Both the position numbers and the translations under genes were made by a program. From Nitrospirales bacterium (GTDB lineage: Bacteria; Nitrospirota; Nitrospiria; Nitrospirales; UBA8639): a stretch of 61,806 bases of DNA. The stretch is taken from contig WHTE01000002.1 of assembly GCA_009377845.1 (NCBI GenBank), forward strand, positions 1 through 61,806, in the 5' to 3' direction. Shown piece by piece: positions 24,795-59,374 of the stretch (position 1 is the stretch's first letter; the number at the start of each line of letters is the position of its first letter). Under the pieces are notes generated by a model. The model saw only the letters and a program-made list of their open reading frames with translations. It had not been told where the DNA came from and made no database searches.

Positions 24795-27700
24795 TCAGGG
24801 AATCCTGCCTGTTTGGATGGTCTCAAACAGTCGGCGAGATTGAGGGAGCGGTTCCCATTGCAGGATGGTTAACGAGTCGTCCACATAGGCTGGGTGGCGA
24901 ATGCCATTGAGCACGCAGGTCACACCAGGGGTGCTGGCGACGGCCCAGAGGGCTATGCGGGAAAAAGGTTCCTCCCGTTTGGCTTCCGGTAAAAATGGGT
25001 CGATGATCTGACGAATTTCAGAGAGGGTTTTAGCACTTTTTTGCGCGGCCTCCATGCGCATGACCTTGAGAAGGGAGACGAGTTCTGGAACGTACCGATC
25101 CCGCCATGATTCCCATATTTGTTCTTCTCCCTTTTTGCCGGCGAAATGCCGGGTGAGCAATTGGAAGACCTGATTGGCATGTGGGGCAATCGTTTGTGAT
25201 TCGATTTGGTCCCAGTGTTCCAAATTTTGAATTGACGATCGAATCCGTTTCAGTTCTTCGGCCCAATTGAAATAATCCAGCGGAGCAGCTCCCTTTTCCG
25301 GATTTGGGAGCTGAGGTGCTAACACCTGCTTGTAGTCGTGTTCCAGGACGGCAACTTTCTGGTGCTGGGCATCAAAGTTCGTATTGGAAATTTCCACCTG
25401 GGGGTCTGCAAGCCGGATCATGCCTCCGCCTTTCTCTGGAATGGCATTCAGTGGTCGATTCACCAATACCGCAATATTGGTTTCCTGGGCCAATGTCAAC
25501 ACCGTTTGTGACTGTTCGGGGCCGGTATTGGGCGTGAGCATGGCTCCCGATTCAAACACATTCATCGGGAGTTGCAGAACACGAAAATGATGGTGAGGAA
25601 TGCCGGAATGCTTCGCGGCAGCCACAGCGGCTTTGAGCATACGAGAGAGCGATGTGGCTTCGGGATGATCGGGTTTGGCCGTGCAGGTATTGGAGGAGAC
25701 TCCATAGTATTGCAAGCGGCCAGCGGCGATTTGTGATTCCAGATAGACAAAAGCCTGTTGCAGACGCCGGTAAAATTCCTGCCGGAGGTCTTCCAGCCTT
25801 ATGGGGTCGATCGACAATTGTCGATTTTTGGCATCCGACAGAAAGTATTCGGGGTTGTGCAAAAGACAGACATCCAGAGTTTCCAGTCCCAGGCGGTCAA
25901 GTGAAAGTAAGAGTTGCTCCTCTAAAAACGTCGGATGGAGGCAGTGCCAGATGCCATCGCCATATTTGACCATCTCGGGAAATGGTTTACCGGCTTGTTC
26001 CCTGGCCTCTGCGCGCGCGAGATTGGTTCCCTGTACGTAGCCGATTTTCGAGACCACGATGATCTCTTCACGCGAGATAGACTTTTTGGCAATGAGATCC
26101 TTGAGCACGGCACCGACCAGCTGCTCGCTGCGGCCGTCGGCATAATTGGTGGACGTATCGATGAGATTGCACCCGTCTTGCAAGGCCTTTTCAAGCGCTC
26201 TTCGATGGTCTTCTACTCCAACGTCTATTCGGTAACCACCAAAGCCAATGCGAGAAGTTGTCAGTCCGGTTGAACCAAAAGATGTGTATCCATGAGAGGA
26301 AGGGCGTGAATGACGCGGGCTGGCTAACCTAGTGGCCACGTACTGACCCGTTCCTTGAGGGGTGGCATGTCCAGGGCGGCCTTGGCCGGTTAGGGCTTGC
26401 AATGGTTCTCCCTGTGCTGATGAGGCGGGGCCTCTTTGAGGATTGCTTAGCGCGGACGGCACGGCATGAGGATCGGTGATCGGGTCTTGGCAGGCAAAGT
26501 TCTTACAGATGTAGAGAGCGGCTTTCCCGTGGACCGGGGTTTTTCCTGCTAATAGGGGATGAGTCGATTCACTCTCCAACTCTTGCCGATAGGCCAAAAT
26601 GCGGTAAGGCACAAAACACTCATTGACCGCCGAGCGGAGTTGGTCATATCCCTTGTCGCCGGGAGTTCCCACTACAGCCAATTCCACCGGGCCTCGTAAT
26701 AAAAGATCTACGACCATAAGACTCTTCGGAAACCCTCTGGACACCTGCCCTATTTGTTGCCCGTATGCCCTAACGGCGTTGGTGGAAGCGGTTCGAAAGT
26801 CTTCACGATCATCGTGAAACGACAAGCGGGCCAACGCCGATGCGGCCACCGCATTTCCGCTAGGGGTAGCCCCGTCAGCGCCTTCTCGTCCCCGGATAAT
26901 TAAGGCTTCATGATCGGCAGCCGTGGTGAAGAATCCTCCATTGACTCGATCTTCGAAATCTTCCAGAATGCGTTCAACCAACGAGATCGCCTCATGGAGA
27001 TACCGTTCGTGCCCCGTGGCTTCATAGACGTCGATCATGGCTTCGGCGGCATAGGCATAATCTTCCAAGCAGGCATTGAGATGGGCGTGACCCGCGCGAT
27101 AGGTGCGCCACAATCGGCTTTCGGGACGTGAAAGCGTGGTCAGCAGGAAATCAGCGGCCCGGATGGCGCCATCCAGATAGGGTTGGTGGTTGAACACCCG
27201 ACCGGCTTCGGCCATCGTCCCGATCATCATGCCATTCCAGGCAGTGATGATTTTGTCATCGAGTCCCGGCGGCACCCGTTTCAGTCGAGCCTGGTACACG
27301 GTCGGTTTTACCCGGTTGATCGTGTCACGCAAGCCTCCAGGGGAACAGCGTAATTCCTGTGCCACCGCCTCAAGTGATTTGGGTGTGCGTGGGATGTTTG
27401 TGTGTTCCCAATTGCCTTCCTCCGTGATGTCGTAATAGGCGCAGAAGTGAGTGGCGTCCTGTTCGCTGGTGACGATTTCACGAATCTGTTCCGGAGTCCA
27501 CACGAAAAACTTGCCTTCCACTCCTTCGCTGTCTGCGTCGGTAGCCGAATAAAACCCGCCTTCCGGTGCGGTCATTTCACGCAAAATGTAATCTAAGGTC
27601 TCGGTCACGACCTGGCGATACCGATTTTCCCCTGTGACTTGAAACGCCTCAGTGTAGGTCCGTGCAAGGAGGGCATTATCATACAGCATTTTTTCAAAAT

Positions 27701-28511
27701 GCGGGACCAACCATTCGTCATCGGTGGAATAGCGCGCAAACCCTCCTCCGATGTGATCGTACAGACCTCCTGCCGCCATGCCATCGAGGGTTTTGGTCAC
27801 CATGGCGAGGATTTTTTCCTCTTGACTCCAGTGATATTGGCGCAAAAGAAACGAGAGGCCGGTGGCAGGCGGAAACTTGGGGGCATGTCCAAAACCCCCG
27901 CAGCGGGCATCGAAATCTCGGGCAAATTGCTTGACGGCATCTTTGATCTCGGCTGCCCCCACGGCAAGTGGAGAGGCCGGTTGGAGGGCGGCTCGCAGAC
28001 GTGTGGTGAATCGACTGGCTTGTTGCACAATGTTGGCTTGATCCTTAATCCACCCCTCGCCAATATTTTTCAGAATTGATCCGAATCCAGGCCGGCCATA
28101 CCGATCGGTGGGAGGGAAATATGTTCCTGCAAAAATTGGCTCCTGATCGGGAGTGAGGAACACCGTCATGGGCCATCCGCCGTGCCCCTGGTTCATGGCG
28201 GTTGTGGCTTGCATATAGATTTCATCCAAATCCGGCCGTTCTTCCCTGTCTACTTTAATATTCACGAAATAGCGGTTCATGAGATCCGCGATGGCCTGAT
28301 TTTCAAACGACTCCCTTTCCATGACGTGGCACCAATGGCAGGCTGAATATCCGATGGAGAGCAAAATGGGCTTGTTCTCGTGCTTAGCTCGACTCAGCGC
28401 CTCCTCCCCCCATGGATACCAATCCACTGGATTGTAGGCGTGTTGCAAAAGGTAAGGACTGGTTTCGTGGATCAGCCGATTGGGTTGGCGGTCGGTTGTG
28501 GATTCAGACAT
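24795..28511 (-). CDS. Fusion: DUF255/YyaL-type thioredoxin-like plus six-hairpin domain, low-complexity linker, C-terminal aldo/keto reductase
   Basis: N-term [24 protein letters not shown]…[17 protein letters not shown]-term [14 protein letters not shown]…[14 protein letters not shown]…VVSKIGY…LLHNPEYF; one uninterrupted 1238-codon frame. Confidence 0.9.
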
Positions 28512-33955: not shown

Positions 33956-36385
33956 ATGTTCGAACGATTCACGGATCGTGGTAGAAAAATTATCATCCTT
34001 GCCAGAGAAGAAGCGGAACGGCACCAAAACGATTATCTGGGTACCGAACATTTGGTGTTAGCCATCCTTCGAGAATCGGATGGCATTGCCCTGATGATCA
34101 TCAAAAAAATGGGCCTTTCTCCCGAACAAATCCGTCTTGAAATTGAACGGAATCTGCCTGGAGGCGGAACGACGGTGACCTTCGGGGAAATTCCATTTAG
34201 TCCCAGAGTCAAGAAAGTCATTGAGTACGGGGTTGAGGAAGCCCGTTTGTTGGGACACAATCATATCGGCAGTGAACATCTGCTCCTCGGTCTTCTACGA
34301 GAAGAAGAAGGAATCGGGGGGAAGGTTCTTCGGAGCTTGGGGGCCAATCTCTTAACGGCCCGTCAATTAACAGTAACGTTCTTACGGAAATCCGGAACCA
34401 GAGAACGTGATAAAAAAAGCAGCACACCTGCATTAGATGAATTTGGCCGAGATCTGACCCAATTGGCGCAGGAAGGGACACTTGATCCCGTCATTGGACG
34501 AGCAGATGAAATCCAGCGGGTCCTCCAAATCCTCAGCCGTCGGACCAAAAATAATCCGGCGTTGATCGGTGAATCCGGCGTTGGGAAAACCGCTATTGTG
34601 GAAGGATTGGCCCAGCGGATCATTGGTATGGATGTCCCGGACAATTTATTGAATCGTCGGGTGATTGCCTTGGATTTGGGTTCTTTGGTTGCTGGTACGA
34701 AATATCGCGGACAGTTTGAAGAACGACTGAAAGTGGTGATGAAAGAGATTGCCCAAGCGGGGAATATCATTCTCTTTATCGATGAACTTCACACTTTAGT
34801 GGGAGCTGGTGCTGCTGAAGGATCCATTGATGCCGCGAATATGTTAAAACCTGCCTTGTCTCGTGGGGAAATCCAATGCATTGGCGCGACCACACTGGAT
34901 GAATATCGAAAACATATTGAAAAGGATGGAGCGCTCAAGCGGCGGTTTCAGCCTATTTATGTTCAGCCTCCTTCTGTGGAAGAGACCGTTCAGATCATTC
35001 AGGGTCTTCGTGACCGATACGAAGAGCACCATGGAGTCGAAATTACGGATGAGGCGGTTGAAGAAGCTGTGAAGCTGAGTGAACGGTATATTACGGACCG
35101 GTTTTTGCCGGACAAAGCTATTGACCTTATTGATGAAACCGGTTCCCGTGCTAAATTGCTGACGTATGCCCTCCCTCCTGAGTTAAAGTCCCTGGAGCAG
35201 GAACTGAAAAGGGTTGCCCGTGAAAAAGAAGTGGCGATCGGGCTTCAGAATTTTGAGGAAGCGGTGAAATTCCGTGAAGAGGAAGAGCGATTCCGGAAAT
35301 TATTGGATGATGCCAAACGGGATTGGAAGAAAAAGCAAGAAAAGAATCGACCTGTCATTTCCGGTGAAGATGTGGCTTATGTCATATCAAAAATCACCGG
35401 CATTCCCCTCTTTAAACTGGAAGAAGAGGAGTCTGAAAAGTTGCTGCATATGGAGGAATACCTTCATAAGCGGATTGTGGGGCAAGAAGAAGCCATTTCT
35501 GCCGTCTGTCGTTCTATTCGGCGGTCACGGGCCGGTTTGAAGGATGCCAAGAGACCAATTGGGTCGTTTATTTTTCTTGGTCCAACCGGGGTAGGGAAGA
35601 CCGAGTTGGCTCGAGCATTAGCCGAGTTCTTGTTTAATACGGATGACGCCTTGATACGGGTGGACATGTCAGAGTACCAAGAAAAATTCACCAGCTCACG
35701 GTTATTTGGTGCCCCTCCCGGTTATGTGGGGTATGAGGAAGGTGGGCAATTGACGGAGAAAGTGAGACGCCGTCCCTATTCGGTTGTGTTATTTGATGAA
35801 ATTGAAAAAGCGCATCCGGATATTTTCAATGTGTTGTTGCAAGTTCTGGATGATGGAGTGTTAACGGATAGTTTAGGCCGGAAGGTGGATTTCAAAAATA
35901 CTATTTTGGTGATGACTTCAAATTTGGGGACTCGATTCATTCAAAAGGGCGTGTCCCTAGGATTTCAACGTGATGGGGAATCCGAACATTCCTCACGAAT
36001 GCGGGGCGAAGTATTGGCCGAGTTGAAGCGTCATTTTAGTCCTGAATTCTTGAATCGTATCGATGAATTGGTCGTCTTTGACCAACTTACGAAAGAACAT
36101 TTGGTGAGTATTGTTGACATTCTCATTGGGGAGCTCAATGCACGTCTTGTGGAAAGAGGAGTGCATTTAGTTGTGTCCGATGAGGTGAAGCAGTGGTTGA
36201 TTAATGAAGGGTTTGAACAACAATATGGTGCCCGTCCCCTCCGCCGAACTATCCAACGCTGCCTGGGAGATCCTCTCTCTGAAGAACTGATTAAAGGGCG
36301 GTTTAAGGAGGCGAAGAAGATTAAGGTTGTCTTGACCGATCACACTCCCAGCTTTATAGAAGAAGAGGTCTTAGCGAGTGTGTGA
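33956..36385 (+). CDS. clpC: ATP-dependent Clp protease ATP-binding subunit ClpC
   Basis: Two Clp-N repeats, [16 protein letters not shown] and [16 protein letters not shown] Walker A motifs, UVR-like [16 protein letters not shown]. Confidence 0.97.
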
Positions 36386-44262: not shown

Positions 44263-46080
44263 TTAAAAAAGTATTTTGACGAGAACACTTGCAACACCAG
44301 CCAGACTTTCACCAGCGACGAGCCCAGCAGCCAGCGCCATTAAAAATCGTTCGCTCCAGGTTTTCGCAAATCTCATTAGGAGTGCTCCAAGAAGGGCTCC
44401 GAGAAAAAGGGACAGAGAGTTCCAGGCAGGAATCACAAAGGCGAGCCCCATCGTTGACGCACTGGGGATCCATCGGCTGATGTGTGGTGAGACAGCTTGA
44501 GCAAGAACGACCATCCCCACCCCTACCAGACCGGCGAGACTCATGGCCAACAGACTTCCAGGAGGAATGGCCTCAATACCGTCTTGAAAGATCTCAGCGA
44601 CGGCTTTCCAGGTTGCCACGGCAGGAGCGGGCCATTCGATTGTTAATAGCATGGATTGAGGATCAGGAATGAGCACCAGGTACACGGCACTACCCACAAG
44701 AGAGCCGGTTAACACTCCGAAAATTTGCGCCAGTACTTGAAAGCGCAGCGACGCGCCGAGAAGGAGGCCAGTCTTCAGATCGTGAAGCAGATCCGCGCAC
44801 TGGCCAGATGCTCCACCTGTGACGTTGGCCGTCATCAGATTCGTGGTGACATTACCGGGTATGAGGAAGCCAAACGTAAGCTGGGCGACTTTCCCCATGG
44901 CCCCGATGGGCGTAATTCCTGTTTCTCCTGATACTCGTCCTGCCACTATGGCAAGCCCAAAGGACAGAAGGACCGCGAGTACCGCGATGACCAATGAAAT
45001 GTTGAAGAAAGCTATCTGAGTCAACACCGCAAACACCAAGGATACACCAAGTCCTATCAAAAACCACTGACGTGGAATAGCATATGGATCGTTGGGGGTT
45101 AAAAGGGGTGCCGAAGTTCTTGGTGAAGGTGTAGTGTCCGGCACAAATGATCGCCATGAGCAGGCAAAAGATGTCAGCGAGGCCATGACCATCAGTGTCA
45201 CGCCCGGCCATAACAACCATTCCACCATCGGTCCGAACCAATAGTCGTCCGGCTTCAGATTCTCCGTTGGAATCCAGCCTTGTGTTAAGACCCATGGACC
45301 AATTATTCCCCAGGCGAGAATCGTTCCAATGAGCAGGGACAGTCCTGCGCGAAGACCGATAATGGCACCAAAGCCGACCATCAGGAGTGAGGGATCAAGA
45401 ACAAATCCAAGATTTGAAAGGGATACGGTGGATAATCCGGTACTGTTGAGTGCTCCCTTTAATGGAATAACCCAGCTCGTTGCCATTTTGGGGATAGTCA
45501 CGATAGCTTCGTTAATAAGTTTCACGAGGCCGGCTATTCCCCCGGCTGTGAGGAGAACTTTCACGCGAGCCAAAGCTTCCCCTCCTTTTCCATAAATTTC
45601 TCTCACGGTTTCTGCTGTGGCAATACCGGCGGGAAATGGCAATTGGTCACGGAGAAGCAACTGTTGACGGAGTCCGACCGCGACCACGATGCCGATCAGA
45701 CTGACGGAAAATACCCATACAGAGAGAAGGGACCAAGCCAATTGCTCACCCGTCAATATGGCTAAGGCAGGAATGGGAGCTACCAACCCTGACGAAATAA
45801 TTGATGCGGCCGAAGACGCAGTGGTTTGATTGATATTATTTTCGAGAAGACCCCAGCTTTCGGTGCGGGCTGTGGTTTCGAATATTTTCCAAAAGGCATA
45901 GCTGAGCAAGGCTGCCGTGATGGACATATTAAACGCCCAGCCAATCTTCAGGCCGCTATAAATATTGCACGGGGTGAGGAGGGCGCCAATGACCATCCCC
46001 GTGGCAATGGCACGAACTGTCAACTGTGGATCAGAAGTGTTGGGTGGGGGAAAGGTATTTGTGGATGAAAGAGAAGCCAT
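44263..46080 (-). CDS. OPT-family oligopeptide/metal-chelate transporter
   Basis: About 605 aa multi-TM; LTVRAIATGMVIGALLTPCNIYSGLKIGW, MTANVTGGASGQCADLLHDLKTGLLLGA. Confidence 0.9.
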   Translation of the reverse strand: MASLSSTNTFPPPNTSDPQLTVRAIATGMVIGALLTPCNIYSGLKIGWAFNMSITAALLSYAFWKIFETTARTESWGLLENNINQTTASSAASIISSGLVAPIPALAILTGEQLAWSLLSVWVFSVSLIGIVVAVGLRQQLLLRDQLPFPAGIATAETVREIYGKGGEALARVKVLLTAGGIAGLVKLINEAIVTIPKMATSWVIPLKGALNSTGLSTVSLSNLGFVLDPSLLMVGFGAIIGLRAGLSLLIGTILAWGIIGPWVLTQGWIPTENLKPDDYWFGPMVEWLLWPGVTLMVMASLTSFACSWRSFVPDTTPSPRTSAPLLTPNDPYAIPRQWFLIGLGVSLVFAVLTQIAFFNISLVIAVLAVLLSFGLAIVAGRVSGETGITPIGAMGKVAQLTFGFLIPGNVTTNLMTANVTGGASGQCADLLHDLKTGLLLGASLRFQVLAQIFGVLTGSLVGSAVYLVLIPDPQSMLLTIEWPAPAVATWKAVAEIFQDGIEAIPPGSLLAMSLAGLVGVGMVVLAQAVSPHISRWIPSASTMGLAFVIPAWNSLSLFLGALLGALLMRFAKTWSERFLMALAAGLVAGESLAGVASVLVKILF

Positions 46081-46494: not shown

Positions 46495-47739
46495 TCATGT
46501 GTCTTCGGTGGCTGAGCGCAATGGCACATGGAGGTGTTCGTGATGGGGTTGATCCATTTCCATATTCGCATTGGGGAAAGTGAATTCATCAAACGGCTGA
46601 GTCGGAAAATCATTGTCGGACCCTAACGTGTGGCGATCTCTCCAAAACACGGGCTCATTTTGCATGTACACGGTCAGTAACTTGGCAATAGCATCGAGCG
46701 AACTCTGATGAGTGCGCTCATACCCATGGGAAGAGTCGACACCAAACGTGACGAGAGCTGTCCGAATGTCGTTTCCAGCCTCCACGGCAGAAGCACTGTC
46801 ACTTCTGTAGTCGCAAAATATGTCGCGTTGAAAAGGAATGTCATGTTCCGCACATAAGGCGATGAGCCGTCTGACGAGATGATAATCAAAGGGTCCTGCT
46901 GAATCGGCCATGGCAATGGTGACTCCGAATTCGCTAGAAGCTTGAAACGGCGCGGGTGTGCCGTTATCAATCGTGACCATTTCTGCGACATCTCCATGCA
47001 AGACGGCTGATGCCCCGGATCCAACCTCTTCGGAAATCGTAAACAGTAAATGGCAATCCACGGGTAGTATGGCACCTGTCTCTATAATGGATTTGGCTGC
47101 AGCAAGGATGGTGGCGACTCCCGCTTTATCATCCAAATGCCGTGAGTTAATAAATCCGTTTGGCGTGATTTCCATTGAGGGATCAATGGCAATAAAATCA
47201 CCGATATTGATTCCCAGGCTCTTAAGATCATGCTCTTTCGATAATGGCTGGATAAACTCTTTATTGTCCGATACCGCTTCATCCAGTCGCACTTCCAGAT
47301 TCTTCCACGACACCGGTTGAGTATCGATTTCATCACCATACGTATGGCCAGAAGCTTTTAGAGGCAAGATTGTGCCGCGATACATGCTTGTATCGGTAAA
47401 AAGGGTCACACGACAACCCTCGGCAAACCGGCTGGACCAGCTTCCGATCGGCACAATTGCCAGTCGGCCGTTGCTTTTGAGCCATTTGACCAGGGCCCCC
47501 AACGTATCCAGATGAGCGACAACGGATCGATCGGGCGTACGTACTTGCCCTTCCATCGTGGCACGAATCGCTCCACGCCGTGTGAGTTCAAAGGGAATCC
47601 CCAATTGTTTAAGCTCATCGGATACCGCATGGACGATTTGATCGGTATAGCCTGTCGGGCTTGGGATGGCTAACAGTTTTGTGAGAATGTGCATGAGATA
47701 ATGCGTATCAATTTTCGGTTTGATCATAAAATTCCCCAT
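46495..47739 (-). CDS. M42-family peptidase of the NAGGN osmoprotectant locus
   Basis: VVAHLDTLGA, NSRHLDDKAGVATIL, FTISEEVGSGAS; directly downstream of the amidotransferase/synthetase pair. Confidence 0.9.
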   Translation of the reverse strand: MGNFMIKPKIDTHYLMHILTKLLAIPSPTGYTDQIVHAVSDELKQLGIPFELTRRGAIRATMEGQVRTPDRSVVAHLDTLGALVKWLKSNGRLAIVPIGSWSSRFAEGCRVTLFTDTSMYRGTILPLKASGHTYGDEIDTQPVSWKNLEVRLDEAVSDNKEFIQPLSKEHDLKSLGINIGDFIAIDPSMEITPNGFINSRHLDDKAGVATILAAAKSIIETGAILPVDCHLLFTISEEVGSGASAVLHGDVAEMVTIDNGTPAPFQASSEFGVTIAMADSAGPFDYHLVRRLIALCAEHDIPFQRDIFCDYRSDSASAVEAGNDIRTALVTFGVDSSHGYERTHQSSLDAIAKLLTVYMQNEPVFWRDRHTLGSDNDFPTQPFDEFTFPNANMEMDQPHHEHLHVPLRSATEDT

Positions 47740-47751
47740 TACTGCAGAAGG

Positions 47752-49512
47752 TTACCTCAAACGTGTCGGTGTTGTGGTTTGAGGAAACAGCAGATCGATA
47801 TATCGTTCAGCGGTCGGTTGTGGTTCATGATTGGCTAAACCGGGTCGCTCATTCGCTTCAATAATGACGTAATTGGGTTTGGAAATGGATGTGACGATGA
47901 AATCAAATCCCACAACAGGAATAGCCAACGCTTTGGCACCTATTACCGCTGCGGCCGCCAAATCAGGATGGATTTTTGCCGTGACATCATGAATGGTCCC
48001 TCCTGTATGTAGATTTGCCGTCTTTCGCACGGTAATGGTCTTGCCTTTTGGTAAGAAATCAGTGAGTGCATATCCGCTTTCCTTCATACATCTCCTGGTT
48101 TCCCAGTCCATCGGTATGCGACTTTCCCCGCCAGTCAATCGTGCTCGACGCTGACTTTGCCGTTCGATCAACTGGGCAATGGTATGATTTCCCGTCCCGG
48201 TGATTCGTGGTGGATGTCGGACTGCGGCTGCAACAACCGCATAGTTGATCAGCACAATTCGTAAGTCCTCGCCTTTCACATATTGTTCCAGAATGACGTG
48301 ATTGCCACCTTTGCCGGCAAGGGCGATCGCGGAATTCATGTCCTTTATTGTGCGCACATCCACACTCACGCCGGTTCCCTGTTCTCCAGCCGCAGGTTTG
48401 ACGACGATGGATGTGTATTTTGCAAGAAATTCACGATTTTTTTTCCGCTCATTTGCCATTATCTGGGCTGGAACGGATAAGCCTGCCTCCTCTAACACTC
48501 GTCGAGTGAGAGTCTTATCGGTGCAACGGCTCATTGCAATGGCCGTGGTTAGTTCGGATAAGGATTCTCGACATGTAATAGATCGACCGCCGAATGTCAG
48601 CCGAAAATATCCAGCTTCGGGGTCCAACACATCAATGTCGATGCCTCGCCGTCTGGCTTCATTGACGATAATAGTTGCATAGGGGTTGAGTCGTTGGTCC
48701 GGTGATGGTCCTGAAAATAATTTTTCATTGATCGTGTTTCGCGTTTTTATCGCAAAAACAGGAATCCGGTGAAATCCAAGTTTTCGGTACAGCGCAATGG
48801 CTTCATGATTATCATGCAGAACCGAAAGATCCACGTAGCTACACCCTCGGACTTTCATAAGTTCGGCCACCTTCCGAACCAATGCCTCTCCCACGCCGGG
48901 ATGGTACGTATGGCGGGCGACGGCCAGACTCCAGATGCTACTGCCTTTTTCGGGATCGTCAAAAATTAAATGATGATTGAGACCCATGATCACTCCAATG
49001 ACTTCATGGGTAGCCTGGTCTTTAGCGAGTAAATACATTAATTTTCGTGAGCGACGATGTTTGATAAGGAAGCCGGGATCGATGGTGACCATGTCTCGTG
49101 CCGCATAGATCCAATTCAGAGCCATGGCATCGGCCTCGGATTGGATAGGGGTTATCATAAATCCTGATTTCTGATTTGAGACTGATTGATAATCAGTCAA
49201 CCACAATCGAAAAGTATGAGAAGGATCCAGAAACAGCTTATGGGGGCGAAGTGCTAAGACCACATGGGGGTCGCGCAAATAAAAAGCGATGTCGCGTTGG
49301 CCGGAACGTTCCTGAAGCAGAGTGGAAGCGACCTCTTCAGGTCCTGTAAAGGTGTGGGCAAAGATCAGTCGACCCCAACCACAGTCCATCACCACTTTTG
49401 GTTTCACCCGCCGGCCTTGGTAGGTCGCCGGTCCTACTTCCCAGTTTTTCACCGTCGGCCCGATTGGTCGCTGACGTGGGCTAGCCATGAGAAGATCATG
49501 TGGGGTCTTCAA
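47752..49512 (-). CDS. N-acetylglutaminylglutamine synthetase (GNAT plus ATP-grasp fusion)
   Basis: GNAT-like SLAVARHTYHPGVGEALVRKV and ATP-grasp SIVVKPAAGEQGTGVSVDVR … DFIVTSISKPNYVIIEANERPGL; trio gene order. Confidence 0.9.
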   Translation of the reverse strand: MKTPHDLLMASPRQRPIGPTVKNWEVGPATYQGRRVKPKVVMDCGWGRLIFAHTFTGPEEVASTLLQERSGQRDIAFYLRDPHVVLALRPHKLFLDPSHTFRLWLTDYQSVSNQKSGFMITPIQSEADAMALNWIYAARDMVTIDPGFLIKHRRSRKLMYLLAKDQATHEVIGVIMGLNHHLIFDDPEKGSSIWSLAVARHTYHPGVGEALVRKVAELMKVRGCSYVDLSVLHDNHEAIALYRKLGFHRIPVFAIKTRNTINEKLFSGPSPDQRLNPYATIIVNEARRRGIDIDVLDPEAGYFRLTFGGRSITCRESLSELTTAIAMSRCTDKTLTRRVLEEAGLSVPAQIMANERKKNREFLAKYTSIVVKPAAGEQGTGVSVDVRTIKDMNSAIALAGKGGNHVILEQYVKGEDLRIVLINYAVVAAAVRHPPRITGTGNHTIAQLIERQSQRRARLTGGESRIPMDWETRRCMKESGYALTDFLPKGKTITVRKTANLHTGGTIHDVTAKIHPDLAAAAVIGAKALAIPVVGFDFIVTSISKPNYVIIEANERPGLANHEPQPTAERYIDLLFPQTTTPTRLR

Positions 49513-49526
49513 AAAACTCGATTTCC

Positions 49527-51299
49527 TTATAGCTTATTGGCCTGGAGCCACAGTTCCAATAACCCAAGCTGCCATAGCTTTGACCCACGTAAAGGCGTGA
49601 GATGATCATCAGGATTGTTTAACAGTTCATGAATATAGTCCCGTTGAAATAACGTGCGTTCCTGACTCGACTTGGACAAAAGGGCCTCTTGCACCATTTC
49701 CAAATAAGGCCCGCGTAGATATTTCAATGCGGGGACGGGGAAATACCCTTTGGGTCGATCAATAACCTCGGAAGGGAGAACTCGACGGGCGATCTCTTTG
49801 AGAATACCTTTTCCGCCTTGCGCGATTTTCATCTTTGCCGGCACTCGGGCTGCCATTTCGACGACTTCATGATCTAAAAACGGTACCCGGGCTTCCAGGC
49901 TCCACGCCATGGTCATATTGTCTACACGCTTGACCGGATCGTCCACTAACATAATCGTCGTATCAAGCCGTAAGGCCTTATCAATAGGTCTAGGGGCTCC
50001 CGGTTGGGAAAAATGGTTCTCCAGAAAGCGCTGGCTATGGTCTTCTTGATGAAATCGTGGATGAACGGCTCGACAAAACTCTTCTTGGTTGCGATCAAAA
50101 AACCCATTGCGATAATCGTCGACTGGACGGTGACTTTTCAAAAGTGGGGGATACCAGTGATATCCTGCGAAAATTTCGTCGGCTCCCTGACCGCTTTGGA
50201 CTACCGTGACATGCTTGGAGACTTCTTTTGAGAGCAAATAAAACCCAATGGCATCGTGACTGACCATTGGCTCAGACATGGCTCGTATACAACCGGGTAA
50301 GTTGGGCAGAACCTGAATGGAATCCACCGGGAGTTTGTGGTGAATGGTTGAGAATTCTTTGGCAATGATATCTGAGTAGAAAAATTCGTCTCCCTTTTCT
50401 CCGGCGATTGTTTCGAACCCGATGGAAAAGGTATTAAGGCCATGTGCCCCTTCATCGGCTAACAGTCCCACGATGAGGCTGGAATCCAATCCACCCGACA
50501 ATAAAACCCCGACGGGCACATCCGCAATAAGCCGCCGGCGTACAGCGGTACGAAGGATATCGTACAGACGATCTTGCCAATCTCTTTCATCCAGATTCAT
50601 TTCATCTTGACCCGGATCGAAGGACAGTTGCCAATATCGATGATGGCGTCGTACTCCGGTTTTCTCAATGACCATCATGGTGCCGGGCTCCAATTTCCTG
50701 ATTCCTTTAAGCAAGGTGTGAGGTGCCGGGACCACGGCGTGAAACATCAGATAGTGATGAAGCGCCACCGGATCGATCTCCGTGTGTACGCCGCCTCCCG
50801 CCAAGAGAGCAGGCAAGGTTGAAGCGAATCGAAACGATTGAGACGTTTCAGTAAAGTAGAGCGGTTTAATGCCTAATCGATCCCGCGCCAGAACGACCTG
50901 TTCCGTATCTCTTTCCCAAATGGCGAAAGCAAACATGCCATTCAAACGATGAATGAATTCTTCTCCCCACGCATGGTAGGCCTTGAGAATCGTTTCGGTA
51001 TCCCCGTGGGAATAAAAGGTATATCCCTTTCCTTCTAGCTCTTTTCTCAATTCCTTGTAGTTGTAAATTGCACCATTAAACACAATGCCAAGCCCCAACT
51101 TTGCATCCACCATTGGTTGCTGTGAAGCTTGGGTCAAGTCAATCACTTTGAGGCGTCGATGCCCGAATCCCAACCGTCCTTGAACGTACACCCCAACACC
51201 ATCAGGACCGCGGCTGGTCATGGTGGCGCTCATGGTCATCAACCCGGCCGGATCGACGGGGTCACCTGAAAAATTTATTTGCCCTAGAATCCCGCACAT
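49527..51299 (-). CDS. asnO: N-acetylglutaminylglutamine amidotransferase (asparagine-synthase family)
   Basis: MCGILGQINF, SRGPDGVGVYVQGRLGFGHRRL, PVGVLLSGGLDSSLIVGLL. Confidence 0.93.
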   Translation of the reverse strand: MCGILGQINFSGDPVDPAGLMTMSATMTSRGPDGVGVYVQGRLGFGHRRLKVIDLTQASQQPMVDAKLGLGIVFNGAIYNYKELRKELEGKGYTFYSHGDTETILKAYHAWGEEFIHRLNGMFAFAIWERDTEQVVLARDRLGIKPLYFTETSQSFRFASTLPALLAGGGVHTEIDPVALHHYLMFHAVVPAPHTLLKGIRKLEPGTMMVIEKTGVRRHHRYWQLSFDPGQDEMNLDERDWQDRLYDILRTAVRRRLIADVPVGVLLSGGLDSSLIVGLLADEGAHGLNTFSIGFETIAGEKGDEFFYSDIIAKEFSTIHHKLPVDSIQVLPNLPGCIRAMSEPMVSHDAIGFYLLSKEVSKHVTVVQSGQGADEIFAGYHWYPPLLKSHRPVDDYRNGFFDRNQEEFCRAVHPRFHQEDHSQRFLENHFSQPGAPRPIDKALRLDTTIMLVDDPVKRVDNMTMAWSLEARVPFLDHEVVEMAARVPAKMKIAQGGKGILKEIARRVLPSEVIDRPKGYFPVPALKYLRGPYLEMVQEALLSKSSQERTLFQRDYIHELLNNPDDHLTPLRGSKLWQLGLLELWLQANKL

Positions 51300-51892: not shown

Positions 51893-53293
51893 TTATGGAA
51901 TTTCTCGAATTTGAATGGAATCGACCCGTTGTTGAGCCAACACGTCTGAGATAATCACGACTTTTTCCCCTGTTTGGAAATGTTCACGTTCTTTTAAAAT
52001 CCGAAATGCGGTTTGCAACGTTTTTTCAGGGTCTGAGCTAAAACTGATCCGGAAGGGAAACACTCCTCGATTGAGCGTCATGGTCCGACGAGATTGACTG
52101 ACGTTGGTGAAGGCATAAATGTTGGTGGTAAAGGGACGACAGTTTGAGACGAAATCGGCCATGATACCTCTCCTCGTGATCACGACAATCCCTTTGGCTT
52201 GTAACCCTTCTGCCAGTTGAACCGCCGCGATGGCCAATTGCTGTTTGTCTTTTGTCGGTTTTAAATGTTTCGAAAACTGTAAGCCTGGAATGGCTTCGGT
52301 TTTGATGGCAATTTTTCGCAGATACTCAATACATTTCAGCGGATATTTACCCACCGTGGTTTCTCCGGATAACATCACCGCATCGGCTTCTTCATAGATC
52401 GCATTGGCCACGTCAGTCACTTCGGCGCGCGTGGGGATGGGATTATGAATCATGGATTCCAGGAGATGGGTCGCGACAATTACCCGTTTTCCATATTCGG
52501 CGCAGAGCCGGACAATTTTGCGCTGCACATTCGGCAAATCCTCCAGGTTGATTTCTACTCCCAAATCTCCACGAGCCACCATAATGCCATCCGATTCCTG
52601 AATAATGTCTTCCAGGTTGCGAACCCCTTCCTGATCCTCAATTTTAGCGATAATTTTGACCTTCCCGGTTTTGTGGCCCATGAGTCGTTTTAATTGTCGG
52701 ATATCTTCAGCCTCTCGAACAAACGAAAGGGCAATAAAATCCACATCCGCCGATAAGCCAAACACAATATCTTTTTCGTCCTTTTGCGTAATCGCAGGGA
52801 GATTGACACGGATCCCTGGTAAATTGACATGGCGCTTGCTTTTCAACACGCCTCCATCAATGACGCGGCACTGCATGAGGCGATCGACTTTTTCCAGGAT
52901 CTCAAAATTGATCAGCCCATTATCCACCGTAATTTTATCTCCCACATTCACCGCCTCCATTAAATCGGCATAGTTAATGTGAATAGAACTTTCCTCCACA
53001 TCCATGGGGCCTCGGGCCGAGATGGACACGATCGTGCCTTGCTTGAGATTGAGATCGGTCGCCAACACTCCGGTGCGGATTTCAGGGCCTTGCGTATCTA
53101 AAATAATAGGAATAGGAAATGGGACTTTCTTATTGAGTGTCTTGATGTGTTTGATCACTTTGGCGTGAGAGTCATGGTCTCCATGGGACATGTTCAACCG
53201 AACAATGTTCATGCCGGCGTCATACATTTTGCGCAACATCTCGTACGATTCTGTAGCCGGCCCGATCGTGCAGATAATTCGTGTCTTTTGCAT
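51893..53293 (-). CDS. pyk: Pyruvate kinase
   Basis: TRIICTIGPATESYEML, MVARGDLGVEINLEDLPNVQRKIV, MLSGETTVGKYPL. Confidence 0.97.
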   Translation of the reverse strand: MQKTRIICTIGPATESYEMLRKMYDAGMNIVRLNMSHGDHDSHAKVIKHIKTLNKKVPFPIPIILDTQGPEIRTGVLATDLNLKQGTIVSISARGPMDVEESSIHINYADLMEAVNVGDKITVDNGLINFEILEKVDRLMQCRVIDGGVLKSKRHVNLPGIRVNLPAITQKDEKDIVFGLSADVDFIALSFVREAEDIRQLKRLMGHKTGKVKIIAKIEDQEGVRNLEDIIQESDGIMVARGDLGVEINLEDLPNVQRKIVRLCAEYGKRVIVATHLLESMIHNPIPTRAEVTDVANAIYEEADAVMLSGETTVGKYPLKCIEYLRKIAIKTEAIPGLQFSKHLKPTKDKQQLAIAAVQLAEGLQAKGIVVITRRGIMADFVSNCRPFTTNIYAFTNVSQSRRTMTLNRGVFPFRISFSSDPEKTLQTAFRILKEREHFQTGEKVVIISDVLAQQRVDSIQIREIP

Positions 53294-53511: not shown

Positions 53512-55827
53512 ATGAATGCGGAAGGGGAACAACTGGATTTTGTGACAATCGAAGGACTTCTTTCCTATGGAGAGGCCATTGCCCGGCGTCCGCCAGTGGA
53601 GGGGGCGGAACTCCCTCCTCCTCCAGCATCATCGGGAGATCGCCCACAACGTGCTCGAGAGGCCATGGCGGCCATACGAGCGTTTGTCCAGGATGCCCAA
53701 GGAGGGTTTTCAGATGCAGTGGCATACCGAAACGCAAGGCACGCGCTGATTCAACACGCATGCGGGGGAGATGAGTTGGTGTTTTTCGCGGCATGGAATC
53801 AGCTTCTCGCCCAAGGCGAGCTGTCATCCTTATTTCGAGCACCCATTGGAGCCACGAAAAAACCAACACGACGTCGTCCCGTGGCTATCGTGCCCCGTGA
53901 ACACATGACTCCCAATTTGGTTGAGGGTCGGATCGTTCTTGACATAGGACACGATCGGTATTGGTTGATGCCTCGGGATTTAAGTGCCCGCACGCTGTTT
54001 TTCACCATGCGGCATGGAGTCTCACAGGTGGACAGTAAGAAGTTTCGTGTGGGGCGCCGGCTGAAGAACGTACTTGATCCTGAGCGGGGCATACCCAAGG
54101 CTGAGGCAATTGGTGGCGCTCTTGCCCGGACAATCGGCCTGGTAGGAAAACAACTGGACTTCCTCCACCTGCACAATTACCTGGATTCGGAATCTTTTGT
54201 GCATATGGTGAGCCACAGTCCCAATACTCATCAGCTCTTTGAACGGGTGGTCTCCATCCTCGCCCCCGTCACAGCCAAGACGACCCAGCCCATCGTTGAA
54301 AGTGCGTTAGAATCACAAGACTTCGGATGGGCTACCGGTATTGAGAAAACCGCCGAACTCGAAGAAGCCGCCAAGGCCTTTGGCGTCGAGACGAAGGCGG
54401 CCAAGGGTCTGATTAAACATCCGCTGTACAGTTATCCGGGAGGCCACTCGTTCTTTGAACTCTATGTAGATTTAGTCGACGGGTTCCATCAGTTGGGCCA
54501 GACCCACCAGGGGAAAGTCCTGTGTTTATACACGCACAGCTCCACATTGCGGGCGCTCTTAATTTTTCTGGATCCTCGTCCGTTCAGCGAAGCCTTTTCT
54601 GAATTTGGAGACTATAAGGAAGGGCAGGACAACGTGGTGCTCCTCACGTTTGAGCATGGGCAGTTGTCCGGGTATTCCACTGCGGTCGGTCTTTCAGAGC
54701 GAGAACGGGCGGCCCGCGAGGCCTGGATGACGGTGGAGCAAGACCGCCGTGGGAAGGTCACCCTGAAACCACGTCAAATTCGACGACTCGTCGCCCTGGT
54801 CTCAGGTGGAGATTTTGCCGGAGCCGGTGCGGGCTTGAAGGAACTCCGTGTGACAGGAAACCGATTGGGTCTCGAAGTGTATTTCGTGCAACACGGATTT
54901 CTGGGGTTGGCGAACAATTGGATTGAGTTGGTGACGGAACAGGACACGCGTGGGATGAGCAATCACGCCAGCAGCCCGATCGGAAGTAGCCGGTTTGAAG
55001 ATTTTAAAGATGAGGAAGTGCAACTGGCCGCCATTCATCATCTCAAACCGTACATGGAGGATGGGGCGTTAATCGTGATGGGAGGTGACGGAAGCCTGCG
55101 TGGGGCTCGTGCCATCTATGAACGGTTTGGTGTACAGGTCGTGGGGATTCCTGGTTCGATCGACGACAATATTGCCGGAACAACGGCACTAGGGCTCCAT
55201 TCCGCTGTTGCCCTGGCCAACCAATCAATCGAGTCGCTGAAAGCGACCAGTGCGGCCATGGGCAGTGTATTTTTCGTGGAAGTCATGGGGGCGGGATCCG
55301 GTCATCTGGCGTTAATGTGTGCATACCAGGCACGAGCTGAGGGACTTTTGGTCAATGAACATCCTGATCCTGATGCGTATATCGAGGAAGTCATTCTAGG
55401 GACACTGAAGCAGACGTTGGGGGTCCGGAACAAAAGCCATATTATTGTGGTGGCCGAACGCACGCCCCACCGCCATCATCCGGAGGGTGGGGTCCATGGC
55501 CTGGTGGACTATTTTGCCAGGAGAATTTCTCAGTGGACCCACCTGCAAACGAGATTCGGGCCTTACCCCCTCTCTGTGGCGACCAAGGCCACCATTCTTG
55601 GCCATACCCTACGGGGTGCCTCCCCGACTCCGGAGGACAAAACCATGGCTCAACACCTAGCCTACGAAGCCATCCGGCGTTTGGTCGAACAACCCGAACA
55701 TGTCATCGGATGCATGTTAGCGTATCGGGATCCCGGAACCATTCAGCACATTCCCCTGCATGCGGTTGCACCGAAACCATTCGACTGGGAACTGTTCGCT
55801 CGAATGCACGGAACCGAATTGGTCTAG
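53512..55827 (+). CDS. Fusion: uncharacterised N-terminal region, histidine-phosphatase (FBPase-2-like) domain, C-terminal PfkA-type 6-phosphofructokinase domain
   Basis: TMRHGVSQVDSKKFRVGRRLKN and YPGGHSFFELYVDLV…LYTHSSTLRALLIFL (phosphatase); VSGGDFAGAGAG, IGSSRFEDF, VMGGDGSLRGA, GIPGSIDDNIAGT, VEVMGAGSGHLAL, LGHTLRGASP (PFK). Confidence 0.88.
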   Translation: MNAEGEQLDFVTIEGLLSYGEAIARRPPVEGAELPPPPASSGDRPQRAREAMAAIRAFVQDAQGGFSDAVAYRNARHALIQHACGGDELVFFAAWNQLLAQGELSSLFRAPIGATKKPTRRRPVAIVPREHMTPNLVEGRIVLDIGHDRYWLMPRDLSARTLFFTMRHGVSQVDSKKFRVGRRLKNVLDPERGIPKAEAIGGALARTIGLVGKQLDFLHLHNYLDSESFVHMVSHSPNTHQLFERVVSILAPVTAKTTQPIVESALESQDFGWATGIEKTAELEEAAKAFGVETKAAKGLIKHPLYSYPGGHSFFELYVDLVDGFHQLGQTHQGKVLCLYTHSSTLRALLIFLDPRPFSEAFSEFGDYKEGQDNVVLLTFEHGQLSGYSTAVGLSERERAAREAWMTVEQDRRGKVTLKPRQIRRLVALVSGGDFAGAGAGLKELRVTGNRLGLEVYFVQHGFLGLANNWIELVTEQDTRGMSNHASSPIGSSRFEDFKDEEVQLAAIHHLKPYMEDGALIVMGGDGSLRGARAIYERFGVQVVGIPGSIDDNIAGTTALGLHSAVALANQSIESLKATSAAMGSVFFVEVMGAGSGHLALMCAYQARAEGLLVNEHPDPDAYIEEVILGTLKQTLGVRNKSHIIVVAERTPHRHHPEGGVHGLVDYFARRISQWTHLQTRFGPYPLSVATKATILGHTLRGASPTPEDKTMAQHLAYEAIRRLVEQPEHVIGCMLAYRDPGTIQHIPLHAVAPKPFDWELFARMHGTELV

Positions 55828-55954: not shown

Positions 55955-56691
55955 ATGAAATTACCTCCAAAAGTTCAAGAAAAGTATTTGGACAGACTGG
56001 ACGAACTCATTCAAAAGGGTGAGCAACTACCTGTCCATAAAAAACCTGTGAAGAGTGGTGGAAATTATGCGACTGGAAAAGTCTCCTATCGGGAAGTTGA
56101 AGAAATTGACTTGCCGAAATTTATTGAGTGGAGAACCAATTGTATTACCGTATTAGAACAAGTAGTTCCACAAAAAAGTGTTCATCGATCCACATTGGAT
56201 TCTTTCCAGACTCTTTCCAATATTCCAAGTCAGCTTAATTTTGGTATTTCGTTTCTTCGATCTCTTAGGGAGGATATTGATAGAGGCTTTTTACAAAATC
56301 TGGCCTCAGAAATAGAAAGTGAGATAACAGCTGATTATATGGGACAAGCAGAGAATCTATTAAAGGAAGGAAGTCCAGGAAAATACGACCATGTCCCAGC
56401 AGCGGTGCTTGCGGGGGCAGTCTTAGAGAAATCATTGAAAACTATCTGCAGTCAACTCTCACCTCCAGAACACACAAATACTCAGAATGGATCTCCCTTG
56501 AAACTTAATGCATTACATTAATCGACACTCTCAAAAAAAGGCAGGTCTACAACGAGCTTATGGCTAAGCAGTTGCGTGCTTGGGCTGATGTTCGAAATCA
56601 TGCAGCCCATGGCAATTTCGACGAATTTACCAAAGATCAAGTTGGTTCCATGATTTCTGGTATTAACAACTTCCTAATTCAGTATCTGTGA
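55955..56691 (+). pseudogene. Frameshifted HEPN/Abi-C-like protein gene (243 aa if repaired)
   Basis: Tandem CATTA|CATTA at 56511-56520 breaks the frame; removing 5 bp restores …SPLKLNALIDTLKKRQVYNELMAKQLRAWADVRNHAAHGNFDEFTKDQVGSMISGINNFLIQYL*. Confidence 0.75.
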
Positions 56692-58759: not shown

Positions 58760-59374
58760 ATGACATTCTATAGAACAAGACTGCCTTATCTTGAGAGACC
58801 AGATTTATCCCCCTTTCTTGTCCATCTCACAAAGGCAGGAGATGGTTGCACGGCCTACGATAATTTGATCAACATTATTGAAAGTGGAACAATAAGGGGG
58901 AGTGACAACAGTGCAGGATATATTAAAGGCCCCTATCCTGCTACCTCCTTTATGGATATACCCTTGTCTTCTCTGAAATATGTCCTAAATACAATCAACA
59001 CAAAATCCCCTTCTCCACGTTACGGACCCTGTGGAATTGTCATTTCAAAAGAAGACGCATATTCTCAGGGGGCACGACCAGTTCTGTATCTCTCAAATCC
59101 TGAAATAAACGAAATGGGCATAACAGACGACCATCTATGGCGCGTGGTTATATTTGAAGGGGTTATAAACGGCTCTATCGGTTGGTTACATGAAAGAGAG
59201 TGGCGCATTAAAGGGGATTATTCCTTGACGCAGCCGTTGGCGGTTCTTGTCAAAGACTGCAATCAGGCAAAAAGGCTTAATAGGAAAATAAATAGTTCTC
59301 CCAGAAGTTTCACAAGCATTCCTCAGTCAATAATTCCATTAGACATACTTTGCCAAGGCTTGCCATTTTTGTGA
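58760..59374 (+). CDS. Hypothetical protein, possible AbiGi/DUF2971-like (abortive-infection associated) protein
   Basis: FLVHLTKAGDG…IIESGTIRG…TSFMDIPLSSL…YGPCGIVISKEDAYSQGARPVLYLSNPE…EREWRIKGDY architecture; family assignment from memory. Confidence 0.5.
   Translation: MTFYRTRLPYLERPDLSPFLVHLTKAGDGCTAYDNLINIIESGTIRGSDNSAGYIKGPYPATSFMDIPLSSLKYVLNTINTKSPSPRYGPCGIVISKEDAYSQGARPVLYLSNPEINEMGITDDHLWRVVIFEGVINGSIGWLHEREWRIKGDYSLTQPLAVLVKDCNQAKRLNRKINSSPRSFTSIPQSIIPLDILCQGLPFL

Follow-up and report, generated by a model that had tools for sequence, protein, structure and literature searches.

Why would a bacterium join a histidine-phosphatase (HP) domain to a phosphofructokinase (PFK) beside the gene for pyruvate kinase (pyk)? 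The window analyzed here, a stretch of 61,806 nucleotides from a Nitrospirales bacterium (contig WHTE01000002.1), encodes such a protein in a single ATG-initiated open frame (Table 1). A first-pass annotation described an uninterrupted frame, divergent from pyk, with an unassigned N-terminal stretch, an FBPase-2-like phosphatase and a PFK domain on the C-terminal side, and proposed a bifunctional switch for hexose-phosphate flux. Its account of the layout is borne out. The frame is open throughout. A helical domain of ~115 residues stands first; it has no family match and is the least conserved part of the fusion protein (mean pairwise identity 57%). The RHG motif, the YPGGHSFFEL segment and the second His lie at residues 167-169, 308-317 and 342. 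PF00365 covers residues 427-722 (E = 3.9e-56), and pyk, identified by TIGR01064 at 515 bits, is separated from the fusion gene by 218 bp.

What, then, does the protein do? The reading that we rank first, at somewhat less than even confidence, is a remodelled, glycolysis-linked sensor or regulator with little or altered catalysis; a kinase with an altered substrate ranks second and an F6P/FBP switch third.

Table 1. Positions of the fusion gene, its parts and other features in the window
Feature	Position	Strand	Remarks
Fusion gene: N-terminal helical domain, histidine-phosphatase-like domain and PFK-A domain	53512..55827	+	771 aa
N-terminal helical domain, about residues 1-115	53512..53856	+	AlphaFold2 model and alignment; no family match
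Branch-1 histidine-phosphatase-like domain, about residues 116-390	53857..54681	+	RHG 167-169 and His342 kept
R167-H168-G169 codons, nucleophile motif	54010..54018	+	invariant in 60/60 copies
PFK-A domain, residues 421-771	54772..55824	+	Pfam; alignment to known PFKs
Pyruvate kinase gene (pyk)	51893..53293	-	divergent neighbor of the fusion gene
N-acetylglutaminylglutamine amide (NAGGN) osmoprotectant cluster	46495..51299	-	directly beside pyk; M42 peptidase, synthetase and amidotransferase, each above its NCBIfam equivalog cut-off
OPT-family transporter	44263..46080		with the NAGGN cluster
Frame with DUF255/DsbH thioredoxin-like domain (11-172) and aldo/keto reductase domain (755-1022)	24795..28511	-	1238 aa
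ClpB-like AAA protein	33956..36385	+	809 aa; 994 bits, under the ClpB equivalog cut-off of 1232
Frame downstream of the fusion gene	55955..56521	+	no Pfam match
Second frame downstream of the fusion gene	58760..59374	+	no Pfam match

Spread and integrity of the fusion

Is the fusion real? A frame of this kind could be an assembly artefact, or both domains could be dead remnants, and frame breaks do occur in a few MAG copies (L059, L064, L069, L072 and G161). These breaks are scattered, however, and the one inspected, in Manganitrophus (L072), falls in a run of G at the SGGD motif; it is probably a sequencing error, and we rejected a natural two-gene version in that lineage. Over 60 genomes contain an intact fusion at 62-91% identity, and one full-length orthologue comes from Ca. 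Nitrospira defluvii, whose chromosome (FP929003) is complete. Because full-length orthologues occur in many independent assemblies, an assembly artefact is excluded. Pairwise dN/dS against the window gene, where computable, is 0.05-0.11 in the HP part and 0.03-0.07 in the PFK part; saturation of synonymous sites prevented the calculation in two comparisons for PFK and one for the N-terminal part. Both parts are under strong purifying selection (dN/dS about 0.05), which speaks against dead remnants and in favor of a sensor or regulator. The conserved frame across independent assemblies already refutes the remnant or artefact explanation, to which we assign almost no probability.

How far does the fusion extend? 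It is present in 32 of 61 close relatives, counting the genome itself and broken copies. A scan of GTDB contigs returned 40 fusion loci, 39 of them under the titles Nitrospira, Nitrospirae, Nitrospirota, Nitrospirales, Nitrospiraceae or Manganitrophus; the remaining locus (L042), titled Nitrospinota, encodes a protein identical to that of G023, a genome of the window's family. Since the scan relied on exact peptides taken from a single sequence, other phyla may have distant relatives. A profile of the N-terminal and HP parts matched in 58 of 249 Nitrospirota genomes, all within the window's class, and among the matches listed every such frame except the broken G161 is long enough to reach the PFK part. 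Matches outside the class were to stand-alone PFKs alone. In this sample the fusion is restricted to one class, apparently Nitrospiria, within which it would have been inherited vertically. Viral contigs and plasmids were also searched, and neither the fusion nor its N-terminal part had a relative there.

Active sites of the two domains

Can the PFK domain act on F6P? Its place in the PFK superfamily follows from the PF00365 score (190.9 bits against a cut-off of 30.9) and from Foldseek matches to PFKs (E = 1e-15), part of the domain being modelled at low confidence (AlphaFold pLDDT below 50 over much of residues 578-702, probably reflecting a shallow alignment). It falls short of the PfkA equivalog TIGR02482, with 180.3 bits against a cut-off of 371.35. 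Pfam yields PF00365 and PF00300 only, and no match to the P-loop 6-phosphofructo-2-kinase domain. Residues were assigned by alignment to E. coli PfkA, with the same register in the alignment to human PFKs. On this numbering, the 60 aligned copies all keep G11, R72, D103-G104-S105, D127, E222, H249 and R252; the donor motif GGDG is invariant, and GGDGS is found in all copies but one, which has GGDGT. The window protein has GGD, R494 (R72), GGDGS at 524-528, D551 (D127), E649, H698 and R701. In the same 60 copies, D129 is replaced by N, R162 by S or T, R171 by A and R243 by K (N553, S585, A594 and K692 in the window protein), so that the F6P-phosphate set R162, R243, H249 and R252 reads S/T, K, H, R. 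D129, R162, R171 and R243 are all present in five stand-alone PFKs that belong to other families of the class. Separately, three stand-alone ATP-type PFKs from other families of the class (L103, L104 and L105) have GGNGS or GGTGS for GGDGS, with D103 replaced.

What do these changes imply? We take R243 of E. coli PfkA to be among the residues that bind the F6P 6-phosphate, and R171 presumably acts on the transferred phosphate. R162 touches the F6P phosphate (PMC12203962), and D129 of known PFKs binds a metal or ammonium cofactor (PMC10339645). The PFK family motif P(G/K)TIDxD (PMC12203962) has as its counterpart PG(S/T)ID(D/N)N in all 60 copies, with D127 kept and N in place of D129, while GGDG is the ATP-type donor motif (PMC12203962, PMC11609450). 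The working PFK-1 of the first-pass annotation is thus not supported, since every aligned copy has replacements at two residues that bind the F6P 6-phosphate and at two that act on the transferred phosphate. Active PPi-PFKs that use F6P and S7P also lack R162 (PMC10339645), a point against reading its loss as a sign of regulation; since that loss alone is tolerated, the argument concerning F6P rests on the combined replacements. The catalytic base D551 and all ATP-type donor motifs are conserved as in an active kinase, which also counts against a purely regulatory role.

Could the domain instead be active with ATP on something else than F6P, such as another sugar or polyol phosphate (e.g., S7P), as a kinase to which the HP domain is the phosphatase counterpart or a regulatory domain? 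We regard this as a substantial possibility, if a weaker one than a sensor. The retention of GGDGS, R72, D127, E222, H249 and R252 agrees with it, as do replacements that include the acceptor side and are fixed rather than drifting, and S7P is accepted by PFKs without R162 (PMC10339645). However, the cofactor-binding D129 (PMC10339645) and R171 are replaced too, and neither a candidate substrate nor a pathway gene is linked to the fusion.

Is the second domain a histidine phosphatase? The window protein matches PF00300 (His_Phos_1) at residues 253-359 with 17.3 bits, under the Pfam cut-off of 21.7, and its sequence alone therefore does not establish HP identity. The assignment is carried by the family and the fold. 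Each of the 29 non-redundant members of the family reaches PF00300 at E<=0.1 (best 7.2e-8, 32.8 bits). Modelled with AlphaFold2, residues 1-419 (pLDDT 86, pTM 0.86) give 157 matches to solved structures at E<=0.001, the best 50 of the 157 being HP-superfamily entries. These matches include TIGAR, PFKFB, PhoE, phosphoglycerate mutases and the Hydrogenobacter phosphoserine phosphatase, with none preferred; a PDB profile search with the HP part returned PFKFB alone, weakly (E = 0.4). R167, H168, G169 and H342 are invariant in 60/60 copies, as in an active phosphatase, which weighs against a sensor. The second catalytic Arg of HP proteins would correspond to the invariant N238, with the strand end S234 of the AlphaFold2 model as anchor, or to residue 240 by the Pfam alignment; an hhalign comparison with four real HP proteins and two spurious frames was too shallow to fix the register. 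Neither position holds a conserved Arg: residue 240 is R in 31, E in 19, K in 4 and H, S, A or T in 6 of the 60 copies, and His in the window protein. Where the LxExxxG motif has its acid Glu, 59 of 60 copies have Ser268 (LESQDFG, register by reading), and the acid may lie elsewhere. The histidine-phosphatase call stands. The FBPase-2-like label is not supported: the fold is equally near TIGAR, PhoE, phosphoglycerate mutases and PFKFB, the second Arg is not conserved and Ser apparently occupies the usual acid position.

Both domains bear on the switch proposed at the outset, an independently evolved bifunctional PFK-1/FBPase (or FBPase-2) acting on F6P and fructose bisphosphates. An HP-type domain is indeed fused to a classical PFK-A fold beside pyk, so the right fold types are joined in one chain, and the YPGGxS segment is common to PFKFB; an FBPase-2-like phosphatase with a working PFK-1 is the part that was not upheld. 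With F6P-site and transfer residues replaced, the HP second Arg and apparently also the usual acid not conserved, and the domain order reversed relative to PFK-2/FBPase-2, this interpretation is weakly supported and, in our judgment, quite improbable. Because both active sites are altered alike in every copy, the protein is probably a regulator or an enzyme for another substrate, not a bacterial version of the human sugar switch. The textbook activities would have been lost or changed, and these replacements, with the kept GGD, R72, GGDGS and D127, count in favor of a sensor or regulator.

Linkage to pyk and metabolic context

Why is the fusion found next to pyk? The two genes lie within about 2.5 kb of each other in 28 of 32 contigs over 7 kb, in several orientations. 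In the window's family one pyk type stands beside the fusion (85-92% identical), and in Nitrospira and L043-L046 it is another type, 35-40% identical to the window's (~37%); on the N. defluvii chromosome the orthologue of the window-family pyk is located elsewhere (L119, 82%). A pyk thus occupies the place beside the fusion in both groups, but not the same paralogue. In five sampled genomes, from one genus of the Nitrospira family, the fusion and pyk lie far apart or on different contigs, which tells against the regulator reading. As a separate observation, several Nitrospiria carry at least two distant pyk paralogues per genome, about 37% identical (G000:C83 and C79; L119 and L120), and the one adjoining the fusion varies by family.

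Does the cell depend on the fusion for PFK or FBPase activity? The genome encodes a second PF00365 protein (C56) that scores 638 bits against the PFKA_PPi_Ttgales equivalog cut-off of 550 and is a PPi-PFK. It also has a class I FBPase, as do 59 of 61 relatives, this genome included (GlpX-type FBPase was found in none of the 61), and a separate HP protein (PF00300, 157.5 bits) with a phosphoglycerate-mutase-like sequence. PFK and FBPase flux could run through the separate PPi-PFK and class I FBPase, and the fusion most likely does not carry either. Three further candidates were rejected in this light: the fusion as the glycolytic PFK is unlikely, given the genome's own PPi-PFK and the residue changes; the HP domain as the glycolytic phosphoglycerate mutase, given the separate typical HP protein with a mutase-like sequence; and the HP domain as the sole FBPase, given the class I enzyme. 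These separate enzymes favor a sensor or regulator and weigh against a PFK-1/FBPase switch. However, in four relatives at >=95% completeness the fusion is the only PF00365 protein, which points the other way on both counts, as does its position beside pyk for the switch. PFK has been reported missing in Great Lakes Nitrospira (PMC9239080).

Co-occurrence was scored in 41 genomes at least 90% complete. Of these, 18 had both the fusion and a stand-alone PFK, 5 the fusion only, 4 the stand-alone PFK only and 14 neither (Fisher p = 5e-4, phylogeny ignored). For the fusion and pyk the counts were 22 with both, 1 with the fusion alone, 9 with pyk alone and 9 with neither (Fisher p = 1e-3, phylogeny likewise ignored, which lessens the weight of either test for a regulator). 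With pyk proximity and co-occurrence with PPi-PFK and pyk, the fusion's linkage to glycolysis is real, and it favors a glycolysis-linked sensor.

Proposed role and related systems

How might a sensor or regulator work? Both its HP and its PFK active site are remodelled, yet strong selection maintains them. The PFK domain would bind ATP and a phosphorylated ligand, and the HP domain would bind a second phospho-metabolite or hold a phospho-histidine; the protein would sense or regulate glycolytic/gluconeogenic flux. Its target may be pyk or PPi-PFK, as PPi-PFKs are typically non-allosteric (PMC12203962). A counterpart of PFK-2/FBPase-2 built from other parts, in which a PFK-A-fold kinase and an HP-type phosphatase would make and remove a signalling sugar (bis)phosphate and so set the direction of glycolysis in nitrite oxidisers using a reversible PPi-PFK, seems to us unlikely.

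Why does the distinction matter? With 190.9 bits against 30.9, Pfam classes the protein as a phosphofructokinase in every Nitrospira-class genome with the fusion. A model built on annotation would thus assign an ATP-PFK step to these nitrifiers and manganese oxidisers, although the altered active site may not perform it. The fusion protein is a conserved, experimentally accessible candidate for control of the direction of carbon flow in autotrophs with a reversible PPi-PFK. We found no prior description of an HP-PFK fusion in the open-access papers searched (on the fusion, and on Nitrospira or comammox with PFK), and mention in genome papers is possible; a 2025 review of PFKs gives the yeast glyoxalase-like fusion and no HP fusion.

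How does the protein compare with known systems? It shares with E. coli PfkA (PF00365, 1pfk) the fold, the GGD and GGDGS donor motifs, R72, the base D127, E222, H249 and R252, and differs at D129 (N), R162 (S/T), R171 (A) and R243 (K); unlike bacterial ATP-PFKs of the PfkA type, it scores under the equivalog cut-off and carries about 420 extra N-terminal residues. With branch 1 of the histidine phosphatases (PF00300; PhoE, TIGAR, phosphoglycerate mutase) it has in common the predicted fold, RHG and the second His, but its second Arg is not conserved, the usual acid is apparently replaced by Ser, and its sequence scores close to the Pfam cut-off or under it. Eukaryotic PFK-2/FBPase-2 (PFKFB) also combines an HP domain with a kinase for a sugar phosphate, and has the YPGGxS segment, but there an unrelated P-loop kinase is N-terminal and the phosphatase C-terminal, whereas the fusion has the reverse order and a PFK-A kinase. 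The yeast PFK with a glyoxalase-I-like N-terminal domain (PMC12203962) likewise adds an N-terminal domain to PFK-A by gene fusion; its added domain is not of the HP type, and the yeast PFK stays an active glycolytic enzyme.
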